Source of the DNA: a candidate division SR1 bacterium
Lineage (GTDB): Bacteria > Patescibacteriota > Gracilibacteria > Absconditabacterales > Absconditicoccaceae
Assembly (NCBI GenBank): GCA_025997135.1
Contig: BNUE01000011.1
Span: 1-28,129 of the forward strand
Direction: 5' to 3'
DNA length: 28,129 nucleotides
This document shows, piece after piece, positions 2,157-28,129 of this stretch (the first letter of the stretch is position 1; every line of letters begins with the position of its first letter). The notes beneath the pieces were generated by a model, which saw only the letters and a program-made list of their open reading frames with translations, was not told where the DNA came from and made no database searches. Both the position numbers and the translations under genes were made by a program.

Positions 2157-2972
2157 TTAACGGGCAAATGGCAAAGAGAATAGATGTGGAGCTCATTTTG
2201 CGGTATTTAAGATTTTCTGAAAATTTCTCTTTGGGTTAGATATAAATCTTCGTAATCGTTCTAACTTGGCTTTTCTGACCAGTATTGGGGCTCTTTTTTG
2301 ATCTCAGCTTCGCCAGTCAAATAATCAGCCGACGTTTAATAAAATTAGCTGGTTTTTTTGGATATTTTCCCGGTTTTCATCAGTCCAAAGCTCTTGTAAT
2401 GGCTTGGTTGGAGTAGATCTTCACTGGAGCATAATAAATACTTCTTTGTCTGACTCTTTTATGGCTTTATGTGCTGTTTTCCAGTCAAATTCACTAAATC
2501 ACTCTTGGGCATATATGACATCAAAACCTAATCATCATAGGTAATAACAAGCTTTCTCTAAGTTTTCTTCACGGGCTCAGTAGCAAATCAAACCGAGTTT
2601 GTGTTTTCAGATTTTTTTTTCTATTTCTACTAAAAAGTATGGCGTAAAATCTGTTCAATTTAGATTATTCAGATGAGCAGTGGGAGAGTCTATTTTTTTG
2701 AGTTTCACTGCACAGAAATAATAAATTTGTAAAGCTATCCCATCAGGCAATAAAAATGCCGATCTTAAGATAGTTTTACGATACTTTTTTTCCATTAAAC
2801 TCATACTTTTTTCATTTTCAAACTGATGAAACCCGATAATCTGAGGATAATATAAAAAATTGATAACGCAGTATTTGCTTTTAAGATAGAAATCCCAAAT
2901 TTCATCTACGATATCTTGTCTATTCCCAGTGTAAAATTTCTTTAATAGTTTTTGGACTGATTCTAAATACAT
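2157..2972 (-). CDS. WecG/TagA/CpsF family glycosyltransferase (GT26)
   Basis: A 271-residue glycosyltransferase of the family that transfers N-acetylmannosamine or related sugars onto undecaprenyl-linked GlcNAc in synthesis of wall teichoic acid, enterobacterial common antigen or capsule. Family landmarks occur in order: LLPDGIAL (about residues 74-81), NGTDF (105-109), GFDVIYAQ near the middle, LNVGGLFDW and KRAP toward the C-terminus, then a basic RLRRF...NPKRNF tail. About ten glycines, including those in NGTD and GGLFDW, are TGA. It is divergent from the pilus operon and shares the 2973-3089 intergenic region. In an organism with SLH-type surface proteins such an enzyme would fit synthesis of the wall polymer that anchors them; that link is inference. 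Confidence 0.88.
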
Positions 2973-4772: not shown

Positions 4773-5942
4773 TTGTCTCTGACTGATAACCTATCCAAAG
4801 CTAAAAAAATCTATCAACAAGCTGATAATACTTTGGAAACTAAGTCTAAGTTTATTGATAAATTTATCGAAAAGATTCTCTCTGCCAGTGATGAATGATC
4901 TTTTTCAGCGAGAGAAAAAATACTTTTCTACAAAGAGTTGGTCTATATGATGAAAGGTTGAGTAGCTCTGATGGATGCTATGGAGATTCTGGCTACATCT
5001 GGGGATAATTTTGCTATTAAAAATGTTGCTGCTGAGATACAGTGGTATTTAAAACAAGGAAAGTCGCTTTCATACGCTATTTCTAGATTGCCTAAATTTT
5101 TCGATGACTGAGATGCTGCAATTATTAGAACAGGGGAAACATCAGGTAATTTGCCAGCGGTACTTCAGTCTCTATCAGAAGAATATGCTTATCTCAAAGA
5201 AATTAAATCTAAATATGTATGAGCGATGATTTATCCGTGTGCGTTGATTATTATCTCATTCGCAGCGGTGATTTACCTGTTCGCATTTGTATTGCCTGGA
5301 ATTTTCGATATGATTGCAGGATGAGTTTCTGAGATGCCACCAGTTACGGCGTTTCTCAAGTGAATGACGGACTTTTTTGTAAATAATTGGAAAATTATTA
5401 TAATCAGCGTTTTTTGTCTGATTTTACTGATTGTCGCATATTCTATGACAGAAAAAGGAAAAAAACAACTCTGAATTCTACTCCTGAATCTTCCGCTCAT
5501 CTGAGATATGTCTAAATCATATTATCTTATCAAATGGGCTAGATATATGCGTCTGATGATCGCTTCTGGTATGGATTATGTGGAGACTTTCAGACTCTTG
5601 CGTGATATTCTCAAGGTTCCAATGTATCAAGATATGATTGAGCAGGTATTAGCTGATATCTCTATGTGAAAGACTCTGTATGAACCTTTGTCTGAGTGGA
5701 GAATTATCATCCCATCAAATGTGTCAGTGCTTATAAAGGTCTGAGAACAAACGGCAAATCTAGAGCACGCTCTATCGAATGTCATCGAAATGTATCAAGA
5801 AGAGCTAGATAATTCTATTAAAAACTTTGCGAAAGCTATTGAACCAGCGATTCTCGTCGTCGTATGAGCCGTTGTGATGTTGATCGCCCTCTGAGTATTT
5901 GGGCTTATTTTCGCCGTGATGGATAATGTATCTGTCGGCTAA
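4773..5942 (+). CDS. pilC: PilC/GspF-type pilus platform protein
   Basis: 389 residues, close to the usual ~400 for PilC. It is the polytopic inner-membrane platform on which the assembly ATPase acts. The sequence shows the two T2SSF repeats: repeat 1 around FYKELVYMMKGGVALMDAME...RTGETSGNLPAVLQSL, repeat 2 around ARYMRLMIASGMDYVETF...KVGEQTANLEHALSNV. Transmembrane segments lie after each repeat, ending with AIEPAILVVVGAVVMLIALG and a short tail. No ATG precedes the conserved N-terminus in frame; a TAA lies at 4764, so the TTG at 4773 (or an ATT just before) must serve as start. Many glycines are TGA. It lies between the PilO-like gene and the prepilins; its ATPase is encoded separately at 17506-19098. 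Confidence 0.92.
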
Positions 5943-17505: not shown

Positions 17506-19098
17506 TTAAACTACCCTTTGAACTTCTTCAATTGTCGTCATTCAGTTTAATACTTTCAATACTCATTCTTCTTTCATTGTGATAAATCCGTTTTCACGAG
17601 CTTTTCCTAGAATTTCAAAATCTGCACCTCAGTTTTCGATCAGTTTTCTTATCTCTTGCGTTATTTCTAATAATTCTAAAATGGCAATTCTACCAATATA
17701 TCAGGTTTTATTGCATTGTTCACAGCCTGTCGCCTGAATTATCTGACCATCATAGCTTGGAGTTGGCTTATCTTTGAAATACTGTAAATCTGATAGAGTT
17801 TTGAGAACTTGCTGAATATCTGCATCTGCAGCATAACTTGCTTGCACTTTAACTCAACAGTGAGGACAAATTTTACGTACTAACCTCTGACCAATCACTA
17901 ACTGTAATGCAGGAGCCAAAAGATAGGGCTTTACTTCCATAGAAAGAAGCCTGTTAATGGCTGCAACAGCATTATTGGTATGGAGAGTTGTAAAAACTAG
18001 GTGTCCTGTGAGAGATGCATTGATGGAAATGTCTGCTGTCTCGAGAGACCTGGTCTCACCTACTAAAATTACATCAGGATCATGACGCAATACAGCATGT
18101 AGTCATGTCTCATAATCATATCATTTACTATAATCAATCTGAGACTGCTGGATTCAGTTCATAACATATTCAATAGGGTCTTCTAGGGTGATAATTTTGG
18201 TTTCTCAGGTATTGAGAGTATTTAGCATTGTGTAGAGTGTTGTAGTTTTACCAGATCAGGTAGGTCAGGCAACCACGATCAGACCAGTGGTTTTTGCTAG
18301 ATAAGGCTTTAATTTTTCGTAATTTTCGTCTGAAAATCATATATCCTGAAAAGTAGAGACTTGTCTGGTAGAATCTAAAAATCTGATTACAGTAGATTCC
18401 ATTCCTAGTCCAGGCATAAAATTGACTCTGGCATCCACTTTCGTCTGTATTTTATTTGGATTAACTGCTTCAAAGCTAAATCTACCATCCTGTGGTAAAT
18501 AATCTATATTCATCTTTACTCCTGATATGAATTTGAGTTTCTGGAGATATTTGAGAAAATCTTTCAGATCAAAAGTCAGAATATCATGTAAAATTCCATC
18601 TAATCTTAAACGAAGTTCAATCTTGTCTCATTTTGGCTGGAAATGTAGGTCTGATGCCCCAGACTGGAAAGCATATCTAACAATTTGCAAAATAAATTCT
18701 CCAGGGTCAAGGCTGGCTCTTTTATCATATAAATTTTTTAAAACATCAATTGCGGATTGTCATTCTGCTTGTTGTTGCTGAGTTTGTTTCATTTCTTGAG
18801 CTAATTCTTGTTGAGTAATTTGATCATACCATTTTAAGGCTTCCTGAAATCATTCTAGAGAAGTATAAAAAATCTGATATTTCTCTCAGTGGGTATCGAG
18901 TTGTGATGTTATGCTTTTTACTGCGTCTGGATAGGTATTTGTGGTCAATATATGTACTATTTTTTCTGGAGTTTTCTGAAAAATCAAAACTTGGCTATTT
19001 TCGGCAGTTTCTCTAGGAATTCTTTTGATTTGCACAAAATCAGGCTGTAATGCCTGCACATCTGTAAGCTCGAGGATTGACTTTATCAAGTCTGTCAT
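17506..19098 (-). CDS. pilB: PilB/GspE-type pilus assembly ATPase
   Basis: 530 residues. Hexameric secretion ATPase that powers pilus or pseudopilus extension with PilC. An N-terminal domain ([15 protein letters not shown]...) and helical linker precede [18 protein letters not shown] (the conserved SDIH-type motif), Walker A AGPTGSGKTT (277-286, two glycines TGA), the Asp box TLEDPIEY, Walker B-like [13 protein letters not shown] and the His box [15 protein letters not shown] tetracysteine zinc site follows, CPHC (411-414) and CEQC near 456, which is diagnostic of PilB/GspE rather than retraction ATPase PilT. It is the obvious partner of the PilC at 4773-5942 but sits 12 kb away and on the other strand. 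Confidence 0.94.
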
Positions 19099-19350: not shown

Positions 19351-21474
19351 TTACATTCTAATTGTGGAAGTTGATACTCTACCACCTGCCTGTCCTCATC
19401 ATCTATTTGAATTATTCGCATTGAATTGTTGTACATTGTTTTGCATATTTTGTTGTTGCATAGCTTCAATATCTAATTCTTCTTTCTCGGTGGAGATCCC
19501 AGCTTGTGATAAACCATATTGAGTGATATATATTGCTTTGATTTTGTCGCTGATGGAAAGTCCTTCTGTGATTTGTGTATTGTTTTCATCGGAATCTCAG
19601 ATTTTTACTATCTGATCAATTCGTTGTCAATTTTTGTAGAGGGAAACTATGTTGTCATCTCAGGATCTAGTGATAGATTGGTTTGGTACTAAAAGAACAT
19701 TTTTGGTTTGAGAAGTTATGATTTTTGCATTTCATCACATACCAGCTAGAATTACTTCATCTGGATCGTTCTTCTCGAAAGTTACTGTAACTTCATAAGT
19801 GGCGATACCACCAGCTGATGTAGGTATTGTGTTGATCTCAGTTATGATGCCGTGATATTCTTGTGTCGAGTATGCGTCTAGAAATACTACAACATCCATT
19901 CATGCCTTGAGCTTGATAATATCTACTTGCTCAACATTTAAAACCATTTCCAGAACGTTATTATTTTCTACATAAATATATTTATCAGAGTTTGATTCGA
20001 TATTGTCTCACATCTGCATATCCATCTGAGTAATGACCCCATCAAAATTGGCTTCTAGTAGATAATCATCGTATTTTTTTAGCAGAGCATTTAGTGACTC
20101 TTGTTTCTGTCTGACGCTATTTTTGGCTTGATTGATTTTGGACTGATTTAGAGATTCTCATCCTTTGATTTTGGCAATGTCTCTCTGGATATTAGCTAAA
20201 TTCTGTAGCAAATCAGCTTTTTCTTTTTGCTGAGATACCAAAAGAGAAGAAATAGAAAGCTGATCTTTTTCTAATTGAGTTTCTGCCTGCTGTAGGGCGA
20301 TTTTTGCATTATCGAGTTCGCGTTTTTTGTCAGGAAGAGAGGTGTCATCATCGAGTTTCGCGAGAATATCTACTGTATTTGTATAGGATTGGATATATTG
20401 GATACCTGCAGACTGAGTGTCAGTACCGTAAGTCTTGGCATAAGAATCTAGTTTTGACTGGGGTTGTGCGATGGTGTCGACACTGGATTTGAACATTGTG
20501 TAGTTGTTTTCTCACCAAATCATCATATCAGAACCGATATTTTTGAGAATAATATATGCAGAGAGTAATTCTTCTTTGGAAATGTCAGCTATTGGTGTAG
20601 ATTCTAGATCTCAATAGACTTTTTCTAGTTGAGTAGTGAGCTCATTTAAGCTTTGAAAGGTCTTTTCGGATTGTTCTTTGGTTGAGAGGTCTTTGGCTCA
20701 AATATAGATTTTATCTTGATTGGATGATGAATAACGCATAGTTACACCTACTATTTGATCATATCAATCAAGGGTAGTTTTGATGGAATTTAAAGATGTT
20801 TTAAGCTTGTAGACGGCATCCTGAAACTTAGCATTTCTGTCTCTCATGGTGCTAGAAAGTGCTAGGTCTGCAGTAGCAGATTCAGATCCTGATAAAAGCT
20901 CATTGTAGTCTGCTAAAACGTCATCATAAGATTTTTGTTTTTCTGAAATTGTAACTTTATCTTTTTCGATGGTTTGATTTAGCTGAGATAGCTCTAGAGC
21001 TTGGTCCTGATTTATAGTTTTTTGCTTTAATAAAATTTCATCATATTTCGCCTGAGATAGTGCTAATTCAATCTTCAAATCATATCCTGCTGTCGCATCA
21101 CTCAGAGCCATCTGTGCATCTGATAGATTGAGCTGAGCCTGTTCAACCTGAGTATCTAAGTCATCTGTGGAAATAGCAGCTAATACCTGTCATTTGTAGA
21201 CGGATTCTCCTACTTTTACATTTACAGCAGTGATTTTGCCTTTGTTGATAAAAGTTAATTTCTGTGAGTCTGCAAAAGTAGTAGTTCACTGTAGGGTTAG
21301 AGTAGTCTGTAAATCGCCTGTCTGAACGACGTATTCACGAGATGCAAACGTAGGAGTCAGTGTTCTATTTCTATTTCGAGGGTGCCGTACAAAAACTATA
21401 ATTAATATTATAACTCCTGCGATGATGATGGAAGTTCTTTTGTTGTCGCTAATCCAGCTTTTTGCTCTCTTCAT
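19351..21474 (-). CDS. Membrane fusion (periplasmic adaptor-like) protein, MacA/HlyD type
   Basis: 707 residues, much longer than the usual ~400. N-terminal membrane anchor (about 14-31, TSIIIAGVIILIIVFV), first lipoyl half-motif around 62-100 (GKITAVNVKVGESVYKGQVL), then a long coiled-coil region to about 465 with alternating helical hairpins, interrupted by a segment around DGYDQIVGVTM. The second lipoyl half (YLLEANFDGVITQMDMQMGD) and beta-barrel follow (EMVLNVEQVDIIKLKAGMDV), then VPNQSI and a Gln/Asn/Gly-rich tail. Adaptors of this type couple MacB-like ABC exporters to outer structures. The nearest candidate ATPase, at 1268-1951, shares the upstream control element. The elongated hairpin would reach further through the wall or S-layer; this is inference. 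Confidence 0.88.
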
Positions 21475-21689: not shown

Positions 21690-23975
21690 TTAGGAGAAAG
21701 ATAGACGCCAGAACTGTGAGAAGATTCGTCCACGTTTTTCGTGTAGTTTAGGCTGATCTAGCGTGATAATTCATTGAGATTTTAGGTTTGCAAGGTGCTT
21801 TTCTCGGTAATTGGCTTGAGCTGTATTGTATGTAGAACCATAGAGTAGGCGAGAAAGAGTAGTAGCGAAGTCAGCTCTTGTCACTATTTGAGATGGCATA
21901 AAATCATTGATAGCTTTTCAATCTGTCTGGATTCACATAATTCATAATTGGCATGCCTGAATCATAAAATTATATAGATCAGAAGCTTTATAACTAGCAA
22001 TAGAGGAATAAAAAGCTGAACAGGATTTGGATGTGTCAGGATTTTTTTTCTGAATATTTTTAGCGTATTGAACTAGAATTTTGGCTAATTCTGCTCTGGT
22101 GATATTGTCCCAAGGTCTGGAATCCTGAACATATCAGGCGCTAGAAAGTCAGATAGCGTGCGCATAGTGAAAAGCCTGCTCATCTTCTAGTGAATATGGT
22201 GTATTTCTAAAAACTGGTGATTTGAGATGGTTTCATCGAGAGCTTGAATTTATCGGAATGGATGTTGTATATGGGATTGTACTTCATCCTCATCCCCCTC
22301 ATCCTCATCCTCATCCACCTCATCCTCATCCACCTCATCCTCATCCTCATCCACCTCATCCTCATCAATTATTACTTCATGTGTTGTTATTTCAGGTATT
22401 TAGAGAGGCTAAGACATCTGTAGCTAGGTCAATATAGGCTTTATAACTGATGCAATTGTCTGTTCAGCTGTAGGTGATGGCTCAGCCATTTCAATCTACA
22501 AATCATTGTATAATACATCCATAAATGGCGTTTGCATCAGCAAATTCGGTAGCTTTGGTTCAGGTTTCGAGAAGTGTACGGTTATCGTCCATCTGGTCTG
22601 CAAGCTCGAAAAAAGATATAACGTGGTCGTAATTCAGACTTTTGTGTCTGTCTGTGAAATCTACTCAGAGAGAGATGGCGTAATCTCTATAATAATCAGA
22701 TAGAGTAATGAACTCTTGGACTGCTTGTGCAGAATTTAGGGAATTTAATTTATTGATGGCATTTAGTCGAGATGCAATGAGTCATGCTGGCTCAGATGCT
22801 AAATCTCAAGTTGCGATGGCATTATGAACGGCAGCAGCTGTATTTATTAGGTTAGCAGCAGCGATTTGATAATTATCCGCTCAGGACATATTGTTTCAAG
22901 AAGAATTGCTATTTCATGAAAGTACAAAAATAGCTTTGTCAATGTATGATTGGTAGTCTGAGGCTCAGATTTCTCCTCATTTTCAGTCTACAAAGTCTTG
23001 GATAATCCTGCCATAAATGGCGTTTGCTTCAGCAAATTCAGTCGCCTGAAATCCAGATTGGAGAGTTGCACGGTTATCATCCATTTGGTCAGCGAGAGTG
23101 AAAAAATCAAACACTTTTGTGTAATTGGAATTCATGTGAGAACCCGCAATCTCTACTCAGAATTTGAGAGCAAGTGCTCTGTAATAATTGGAGATGGCGA
23201 TGAGGTTCTGCACGTTATCAGCGGAAGCTAAATTATTTAACTGATGAATTCCTGAATATCGGGTATCAATAAGTACTGTCGGTTCTTGGTCTCAGATAAA
23301 TATATGTGCATTTAGAGCATTGTGGATCGCTCCAGCGGTATTTATGAGTATTCAGGCGGCAGTTTCGTAATCTTCGGCATCGCTTCATCGTGACTGTGTC
23401 TGGAGAGCTGTTGCATTGATGCTCAAGAGTAGAGGTATCGCCTGATTAACGTAATTTTTATAATTATTTAGTCAGATAGATCATCAGTTTCAGTCTACGA
23501 AACCTTGGATTATACTTTTGTGAGTAGCGATCAGATTTGCACCTGTCGTGCCTAATGTTTGCAGATGATTGGCGTCTACTTGCTCAACTATCTTAAAAAA
23601 TTTGATAACAGCGTCATAATTCTGATTTTTGTGTATGCCTGTGATGTCGACATTGTAGATAGTAGCTAGGTTTTTGTACTGATTGGCTAAAGTAAAAAGG
23701 TCGCTAAAATCAGATGGTGTATTGAGAGAATTTCAGCTGAAAGTGATATTTAATTTGTCAATAGCTAAGTGCCGTTTGTCGACTATGTCTGTTGGCTCTG
23801 TATCGCCAGTGAATAGATGTGCATTCAGAGCATTGTGTATCGCTCCAGCGGTGTTTATAGTGAGAGATGCAGCTTCCCATCGAGTGGTGGCATCTGGAGG
23901 GGTCGTCAATGCAAAAGTAGGAGAAACTGACAGTATCAAGCCAAAAACACCTAGTAAAAATCAGCTTTTTTTCAT
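21690..23975 (-). CDS. Large secreted modular protein with 28-Gly linker and SLH-like repeats
   Basis: 761 residues in code 25; the standard code breaks it into more than ten pieces. Signal peptide MKKSGFLLGVFGLILSVSPTFA. Three related modules of about 165 residues follow (about 33-198, 199-362, 363-530). They share INTAGAIHNALNAH or a variant (INTAAAVHNAIA), a helix like FFELADQMDDNR and, at the end, GFVDGNGG or similar. Then TGNNNTGSNN and 28 consecutive glycines (537-564). The C-terminus has two SLH-like repeats: AHAIGLSSAGYV...NITRAELAKILVQYA and ACQLGIMGI...FMPSQIVTRADFATTLSRLL. SLH domains bind wall polymers, so the modules would be displayed on the cell surface through a flexible linker. 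I do not recognise the module family. Confidence 0.85.
22284..22367 (-). repeat. Polyglycine tract of 28 codons, 13 of them UGA
   Basis: The minus strand reads an unbroken series of TGA, GGA, GGT and GGG codons: 13 TGA, 11 GGA, 3 GGT and 1 GGG. The core period is TGAGGA, with GGTGGA inserted at intervals. In the plus orientation it is a CATCCT-type simple repeat. It links the module region to the SLH-like region. Confidence 0.9.
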
Positions 23976-26945: not shown

Positions 26946-28129
26946 ATGCAAAACAAAACTTCTCAGAAATCTAGAAAACCTCTATGATTTCTCAGTGTTG
27001 TGACGTTTCTGATGATCATGGTAGGAGTAGGTTATACTGTATCTAATGCAGTTGCTCAATCTCCAAATTCAGCTTTATCTCCTGTTTTGGCAGAAGATCA
27101 AATAACTGGAACCAGTTCAAATATTTCGCCACAATCACAGGGATGAAGTTTATTATCTTCGCTAGAATCCTCTGTTGCTAATAAAGCCACTACATTTTGG
27201 CAAAGCATCATTGGGAATGCAGTAAGTACAGAAAGCGTATCTATTGACACTGATAATTCAACTCAAAATGAGAAAAATTCAACTTTTTCTTCAGATTTGA
27301 ATGTATCTTTGGCTCCAACATTGCCTCTGCCTGGGGTATATGGCGATATTACATCTAGTAAGTATCGTGATGCTATTCTGGTACTATATTCTCAGGGACT
27401 CTTGCTTAGAGATGATAATTTTCACCCAGACAATTTTGTACGTGTTAGCGATTTCATAAGGGTAGTTATGGACGCGTATCTCGTACAGCAGTGAATAGAT
27501 CCACTTACCCAAAAGGATTACTCGACGAAAACTTATTTTGTCGATGAAAAAATTCCTACAGAGGTGTTAGTGAGAGTAAATCGTGCGTTTGAAGCATGAT
27601 TCCTACAAAATCTTGATGTGTTAGATGAGAACTGAAAATCTCGTTTAACAGAGTTTATTAGTCCCAGTAAAGCACAGGGTATTCTACGACTGATGAGTGC
27701 GAAATCACCATCTATTGTACAGAATCCACCTGATCTAGCTTTTCAGAGCAAAACAATGCTTCGTAAAGATGAGATGGCTAAATTGGTAGTTGACAGCTTA
27801 AATATGAAGCTGAATAGTCGTTCTTTACCAGTGTTTAAGGATATTTATTGATCTAAGTATCAAGAAGCAATTCAGATGCTTGCAGATTATGGAATTGTCG
27901 GTTGAGTAAATGGGAATTTTTTCCCAGATGCCTGACTCGAAAATAAAGATTTCGTAATTATGCTCTCTAGAGTTCTTCTTTTACAGCAAAATAAAACTTT
28001 TGTTCCAATAGATCGTTTTTATTACTTAACCACTATAAAAAATGTCTCAAATCTTGCTCCGTATGCTCCCTATCTTGAGTTTTGCCTTGAGTATGAAATA
28101 TGTAATTCATTACTTTCTCAGGAATCCAC
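26946..28129 (+). CDS. SLH-domain surface protein (3'-truncated)
   Basis: 394 residues are visible; the gene continues past the window. N-terminus MQNKTSQKSRKPLGFLSVVT with a signal peptide ending near VAQ. A Ser/Asn-rich stretch to about residue 120 is followed by SLH repeats: YGDITSSKYRDAILVLYSQG...FHPDNFVRVSDFIRVVMDAYL, a second at FVDEKIPTEVLVRVNRAFEA and a third around VFKDIYGSKYQEAIQMLADY...FFPDAGLENKDFVIMLSRVL. Sites normally reading TRAE are weaker (VRVSD, ENKD). The promoter is perfect consensus, consistent with an abundant S-layer-type protein. Few TGA codons occur in the first 180 residues, then one every 20-40. Confidence 0.85.

Follow-up and report, generated by a model that had tools for sequence, protein, structure and literature searches.

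Within a 28,129-nucleotide (nt) stretch of a candidate division SR1 bacterium (contig BNUE01000011.1, hereafter the window), one open reading frame (ORF) on the minus strand encodes a predicted surface protein with 28 consecutive glycines, 13 of which are coded by TGA. We favor, with a probability of about 0.85, the explanation that this run serves as a long glycine linker in a secreted protein, with the three N-terminal modules on one side and an SLH domain on the other. The tract would be read without interruption, its UGA codons, interspersed with GGN, being decoded as glycine by tRNA(UCA). Its length probably arose when a TGA/GGA unit was duplicated in tandem and in frame, for which slippage or unequal recombination would be the route. 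The features of the ORF are as follows.

21690..23975, minus strand: single code-25 ORF of 761 amino acids (aa), predicted to encode a surface protein that ends in an SLH domain
23910..23975, minus strand: signal-peptide-like N-terminus, residues 1-22 (translation judged by eye)
23402..23876, minus strand: N-terminal module 1, about residues 34-191, homologous to modules 2 and 3
22907..23363, minus strand: N-terminal module 2, about residues 205-356, 45% identity to module 1
22397..22868, minus strand: N-terminal module 3, about residues 370-526, 47% identity to module 1
22284..22367, minus strand: polyglycine linker, residues 537-564 (28 aa), 13 TGA, 36-nt tandem structure
21693..22208, minus strand: SLH domain at the C terminus, residues 590-761, supported by sequence and fold prediction

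The polyglycine tract and its protein

The window was translated in code 25 (table 25; UGA = Gly), under which the 761-residue ORF contains 46 in-frame TGA codons and no internal stops. A signal-peptide-like start is followed by three homologous modules, the polyglycine run, and the SLH domain, so this is one polypeptide that joins surface-type modules to an SLH domain, as a preliminary description of the sequence had proposed. That description had the position, the 28-residue length, and the TGA count of the tract exactly right, and the strand, which it left unnamed, is minus. The 28 codons comprise 13 TGA, 11 GGA, 3 GGT, and 1 GGG. Given the glycine content of the ORF outside the run (51/748), a run of this kind would arise at any one position with a probability of roughly 10^-33.

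Tandem Repeats Finder (TRF) located a tandem array at 22284-22367. The best repeat unit was 36 nt, with 46 of 48 bases (96%) identical at that shift, versus 61 of 78 at the plain 6-nt shift. Thus, the TGAGGA repeat described earlier does have in-frame tandem structure, but the hexamer is not its best unit. The longest repeated codon string was 10 codons (P = 0.0025 against codon shuffles), and the near-identical 36-nt repeat suggests growth by duplication. All units are multiples of 3 and keep the frame, in agreement with the proposal that the repeat could change length in frame. The 13 UGA codons had also been pictured as a row-like array. The number is correct, but TGA alternates with GGN along the tract, and only one TGA-TGA neighbor pair was observed versus 5.6 expected when the codons were shuffled. 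A general avoidance of TGA-TGA pairs was considered and rejected (54 pairs versus 66.3 expected over 34 runs; P = 0.13 without the window tract and the G001 run L080). The alternation is a property of the window repeat, with no clear general avoidance.

Support for the C-terminal domain came from the family and from the predicted fold. Among aligned members of this domain, 21 of 23 matched Pfam SLH at an E value of ≤0.1, and the predicted fold of the window domain resembles the SLH domains of SpaA and Sap. The protein shares with known SLH proteins (PF00395) a signal-peptide-like start, a variable N-terminal part, a linker, and the SLH domain. It differs from them in its pure 28-residue polyglycine linker, in a third SLH repeat that looks degenerate, and in N-terminal modules that have no Pfam family at an E value of ≤0.01. 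The protein would be exported and presumably anchored to the envelope through the SLH domain, which may bind a cell wall polymer; the linker would be flexible.

Several observations weigh against this explanation. The SLH domain alone scored 21.3 bits against PF00395 (curated cut-off, 20.8), a bare pass pieced together from stretches that each fall under the cut-off, and the whole protein scored 17.7, below it. The degenerate look of the third repeat in the window copy was judged by eye in the alignment. The full-length AlphaFold model, built on a 3-row alignment, had a pLDDT of 41.7 and was set aside as useless. The N-terminal modules carry no assigned fold or function, and no solved structure was related to them by sequence at an E value of ≤1. 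Finally, the maximum run among the related ORFs described below, 29 glycines with 13 TGA in genome G005, is without tandem structure (P = 0.54), which implies that duplication is not the sole route to length.

We also considered an artefact, in which frame errors have joined the surroundings of what is truly an Asp-Glu linker or an intergenic stretch. The +1 frame of the tract does read Asp-Glu, which is the frame used by relatives with release factor 2 (RF2), and a minus-strand site resembling a promoter ends at 22368. However, both flanks lie in the glycine frame, which is open for at least 707 codons versus 49 for Asp-Glu, so that two compensating errors would be required. Paralogues carry glycine runs at a like place. 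The first start codon after the tract is at residue 671, inside the SLH domain, and this speaks against the flanks being separate proteins. As 14 promoter-like sites occur in 2.8 kb versus 8.6 (standard deviation, 3.1) expected, the single site at 22368 carries no weight. We regard an artefact as extremely improbable, and a single chain with a glycine linker as the preferred reading.

Decoding and use of TGA

ARAGORN found a 74-nt tRNA with anticodon TCA, printed as SeC from its anticodon. Its ends (G1:C72, C2:G71, G3:C70, and U73) are glycine identity elements, and such end features have been used to assign tRNA(UCA) to glycine (PMC8629427). One such gene was seen, present in three overlapping loci (20 of 30 fetched tRNA loci were scanned, and 9 of 39 tRNA matches were without a locus). 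No prfB match over the cut-off was found in the draft genome, which is 93.8% complete; the sole match scored 246.5 bits versus a cut-off of 370. This match is release factor 1 (RF1), with a score of 436 versus 400 for NCBIfam NF001859, and it fell just under the TIGR00019 cut-off (422.5 versus 423.25). At residue 681, which is glycine in 23 of 23 aligned sequences, the window ORF has TGA. Reading of UGA as glycine has been demonstrated by peptides in a BD1-5 bacterium (PMC4032931), and we infer that the UGAs of the tract are read as glycine in the cell. TGA at a conserved glycine, a tRNA(UCA) whose ends mark it for glycine, and RF1 together with the lack of an RF2 match that passes the cut-off are all shared with code 25 of Absconditabacteria (SR1)/Gracilibacteria; no difference was found, and the window uses this code in the ordinary way.

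TGA made up 13 of 28 glycine codons in the tract and 213 of 476 elsewhere in window ORFs of ≥130 codons, which were non-overlapping and mechanically picked. Against a background of 91/229 from the window protein and fetched paralogues, the chance of at least 13 TGA in the tract was 0.29. We therefore rejected TGA enrichment; the many TGAs of the tract are due to the ordinary glycine codon usage of the window sequence. The earlier suggestion that the tract needs sustained decoding by tRNA-Gly(UCA) agrees with the tRNA gene and the lack of an RF2 match, but a special decoding demand does not follow, as the TGA share equals background. It is very unlikely that translation is slowed or regulated by the UGA-rich tract on its way from the N-terminal modules to the SLH domain. 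The single tRNA(UCA) gene would fit such a role. Against it, the TGA share is that of the background, GGN codons alternate with TGA, and TGAGGA tracts are present in the bL12 hinge of two relatives. bL12 is highly translated in bacteria generally.

A further possibility is that UGA use is relaxed in long glycine linkers, which would be about half TGA whatever the habit of the genome, either because misreading there is harmless or because TGA breaks up G-rich DNA. Genomes were grouped by low, middle, or high TGA use. In this order, the TGA share was 26/60, 57/125, and 25/45 in glycine runs of ≥10 (0.43 to 0.56), while for isolated glycines it was 83/616, 315/971, and 733/1175 (0.13 to 0.62). 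In the low-TGA group, runs of ≥6 had 28/67 TGA versus 16/199 in the rest of the same ORFs (P = 2e-9). However, this group consists of four runs from two genomes, codons inside a run are not independent, and runs of 4 to 5 in low-TGA genomes showed little effect (5/27). A second, partly overlapping sample gave a weaker result (16/52 versus 317/1732; P = 0.03), and the rank correlation of run share with background was 0.46 (P = 0.085). The idea is silent on the window genome, where tract share and background agree, and we consider it unlikely.

Linkers before SLH domains in relatives

The same design recurs in many relatives. Matches to the C-terminal domain occurred in 38 of the 59 genomes searched (own genome included), with up to at least 18 per genome, and the 47 loci of relatives with this domain were mostly from SR1, Absconditabacteria, Gracilibacteria, Patescibacteria, or uncultured metagenome-assembled genomes. 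We compared 110 related ORFs, comprising 30 best-per-genome loci and 80 selected among the matches listed with the same genus favored; each species was represented by one genome, and L066 was counted as an incomplete ORF. The longest glycine run ranged from 1 to 29 and was ≥4 in 60 ORFs, ≥6 in 37, ≥10 in 17, and ≥20 in 3. In 36 of the 37 ORFs with runs of ≥6, the run stopped 142 to 258 residues ahead of the match end, the same as in the window ORF.

Three of these 37 runs are in genomes with RF2 over the cut-off (G038, G039, and G040). They contain 6, 12, and 15 glycines, use GGN codons only, and have Pfam SLH domains downstream. For the G039 ORF (L029), the domain-search match sits on the glycine run itself, and the SLH domains were confirmed separately. 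The linker design is therefore independent of reassignment, and the view that reassignment is required for such linkers does not hold. In a set of 5.8 billion proteins (7995 candidates scored), there were at least two homologues at an E value of ≤0.001. The best full-length homologue among the matches listed, P0002, had 38% identity over 52%, and would have about nine glycines at the equivalent place if its W residues represent TGA read as tryptophan. Taken together, the window linker is ordinary in kind and codon use and unusual in length and tandem structure. Within open-licence PubMed Central (PMC) text, we found no paper on polyglycine in Gracilibacteria, which does not establish its absence from print.

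Tandem structure was also seen in other runs. L080 of G001 has a tandem-like run with 9 codons repeated (P = 0.004), L156:1-1845 (plus strand) has a 17-glycine run in which a 15-nt unit (TGA TGA TGA GGT GGA) occurs three times, and L145 of G068 has a plain hexamer repeat. In standard-code G040, the run of L030 has a 9-nt unit (P = 0.001). Ten of the 12 longest code-25 runs tested were indistinguishable from shuffles. Tandem duplication is thus likely in the window tract but is neither universal nor tied to the code.

Such repeats raise the possibility of a contingency locus, in which slippage would expand and contract the repeat so that linker lengths, and the display of the modules, vary within the population. 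The near-perfect 36-nt repeat, the spread of run lengths among related ORFs, and the comparable repeats in L080, L156, and L145 are consistent with this. A hypervariable repeat has been published in a Gracilibacterium surface protein, the authors of which expect length variation from such arrays (PMC6851277). It resembles the window tract in being a low-complexity repeat of a predicted surface protein in a code-25 host for which repeat-driven change was proposed. However, the published repeat is Pro-Thr-Asp without TGA, the measured variation is synonymous, and the locus was judged from depth to be probably not highly variable in repeat number (PMC6851277); the window tract is known from one genome. 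The run of about nine in P0002 reflects evolutionary change only, and the GGT or GGG interruptions should slow slippage. A contingency locus is, on balance, somewhat unlikely.

Other observations concern SLH proteins and the neighborhood of the window ORF. L008 is an ORF with two SLH-like domains and a glycine run and a serine run ahead of them. An Absconditabacteria-type domain (L182) was on a contig filed under an Epulonipiscium genome and is perhaps on a misplaced contig. In the window, a second SLH protein (Pfam SLH E value, 1.5e-6) at 26946-28127 (plus strand) runs off the end, and a WecG/TagA/CpsF-type glycosyltransferase at 2157-2972 (minus strand) possibly makes the polymer bound by SLH domains. 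Proteins of the T2SSF and T2SSE families (secretion/type IV pilus) and an HlyD-type protein are encoded at 4773-5942 (plus strand), 17506-19098 (minus strand), and 19351-21474 (minus strand).

The TGAGGA hexamer and the genetic code

We searched the genomes of the family and class for the exact 17-nt pattern TGAGGATGAGGATGAGG, of the (TGAGGA) type. Of the 49 family genomes, 3 contained it, as did 13 of the 288 from the class. Seven of these 13 have a prfB match that passes the cut-off, and six do not. Nineteen tracts among the matches listed were scored by the longest sense frame at each match's own position, leaving out repeat hits of one tract and places without their own locus, e.g., one in G196. 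In the six genomes without an RF2 match, glycine was the longest sense frame in 8 of 8 tracts. In the seven RF2-bearing genomes, among the three sense frames, Asp-Glu ran longest in 10 of 11 tracts, and glycine in 0 of 11; two of the 11, L208 and L214, share one ORF. The exception, L205, lies at a contig end, with 59 codons for Asp-Glu versus 63 for the third frame. The similar TGA-GGN tracts that were to be sought in other code-25 genomes thus exist, and the glycine-frame tracts were as follows.

Window protein: the tract described here
L213: SLH protein with a surface Ig-like domain
L144:1272-1703 (minus strand) and L149:1174-1746 (plus strand): bL12 hinge of the G067 and G068 relatives, by Pfam
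L199: AcrB-type transporter
L145:1384-1878 (plus strand) and L197:1323-1673 (minus strand): short secreted-looking proteins
L198: Gly-rich protein

The bL12 polyglycine hinges of G067 and G068 are 8 and 6 residues long (L144 and L149) and are built of TGAGGA units. In L145 and L197, the polyglycine run is followed by a terminal LPETGASL or LPRTGASN (LPxTG-like) with the usual tail absent; we take these ends to be a sortase-like motif. In RF2-bearing G196 (L208:216-310 and L200), large ORFs contain long Pro-Thr repeats with Asp-Glu tracts embedded in them.

These counts are to be read with the following in mind. An antisense frame was longer than the chosen sense frame in 5 of the 19 tracts: L201 and L209 from RF2-bearing genomes (414 and 385 codons) and L144, L145, and L197 from those without an RF2 match (158, 189, and 151 codons). 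For L144, the Pfam match to bL12 decides the frame; for L145 and L197, the frames rest on signal-peptide-like starts judged by eye. A missing RF2 counts for less where the genome is incomplete (G067 is 75% and G068 83% complete), and G191 has no release-factor match whatsoever, RF1 included. The eight glycine-frame tracts are not independent, since three of the six genomes belong to one family and the two bL12 tracts are homologous. Lastly, the standard code closes the glycine frame by definition, and the RF2-side half of the contrast is therefore trivial. What carries information is that the glycine frame is used in code-25 genomes even though Asp-Glu is open to them (0 of 8 Asp-Glu). The earlier claim that reassignment has opened a class of hexamer repeats to coding is narrowly supported by this contrast, while closure under the standard code is true by definition.

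It is possible, if still short of an even chance, that what (TGAGGA)n means in protein depends on the code in this bacterial class, with acidic Asp-Glu linkers in RF2-bearing lineages and polyglycine in lineages without RF2. Reassignment would then have turned a DNA repeat prone to slippage from one kind of linker chemistry toward another, in surface proteins and in the bL12 hinge as well. A close idea is already published for glutamine-rich motifs of ciliates in which TAA/TAG encode Gln (PMC10942620). Reassigned stops there also accompany homopolymer-rich proteins, and codon choice is tied to replication slippage. The ciliate case differs in concerning eukaryotes, glutamine, and the expansion of Q-rich motifs, whereas the window case is bacterial and concerns glycine, with no overall expansion shown.

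Overall, the window tract belongs to a known kind of linker, of which it is a long example, and lies in a surface-type protein read in code 25. Taken singly, it has the more modest meaning: the surface-protein design is common, and the TGAs come from ordinary codon usage. What merits following up is the frame contrast of the hexamer. It offers a countable case in which codon reassignment alters which simple DNA repeats can code, and for what. Because one repeat is open to comparison between lineages with and without RF2, the effect of the code change on the evolution of low-complexity proteins becomes testable by counting.
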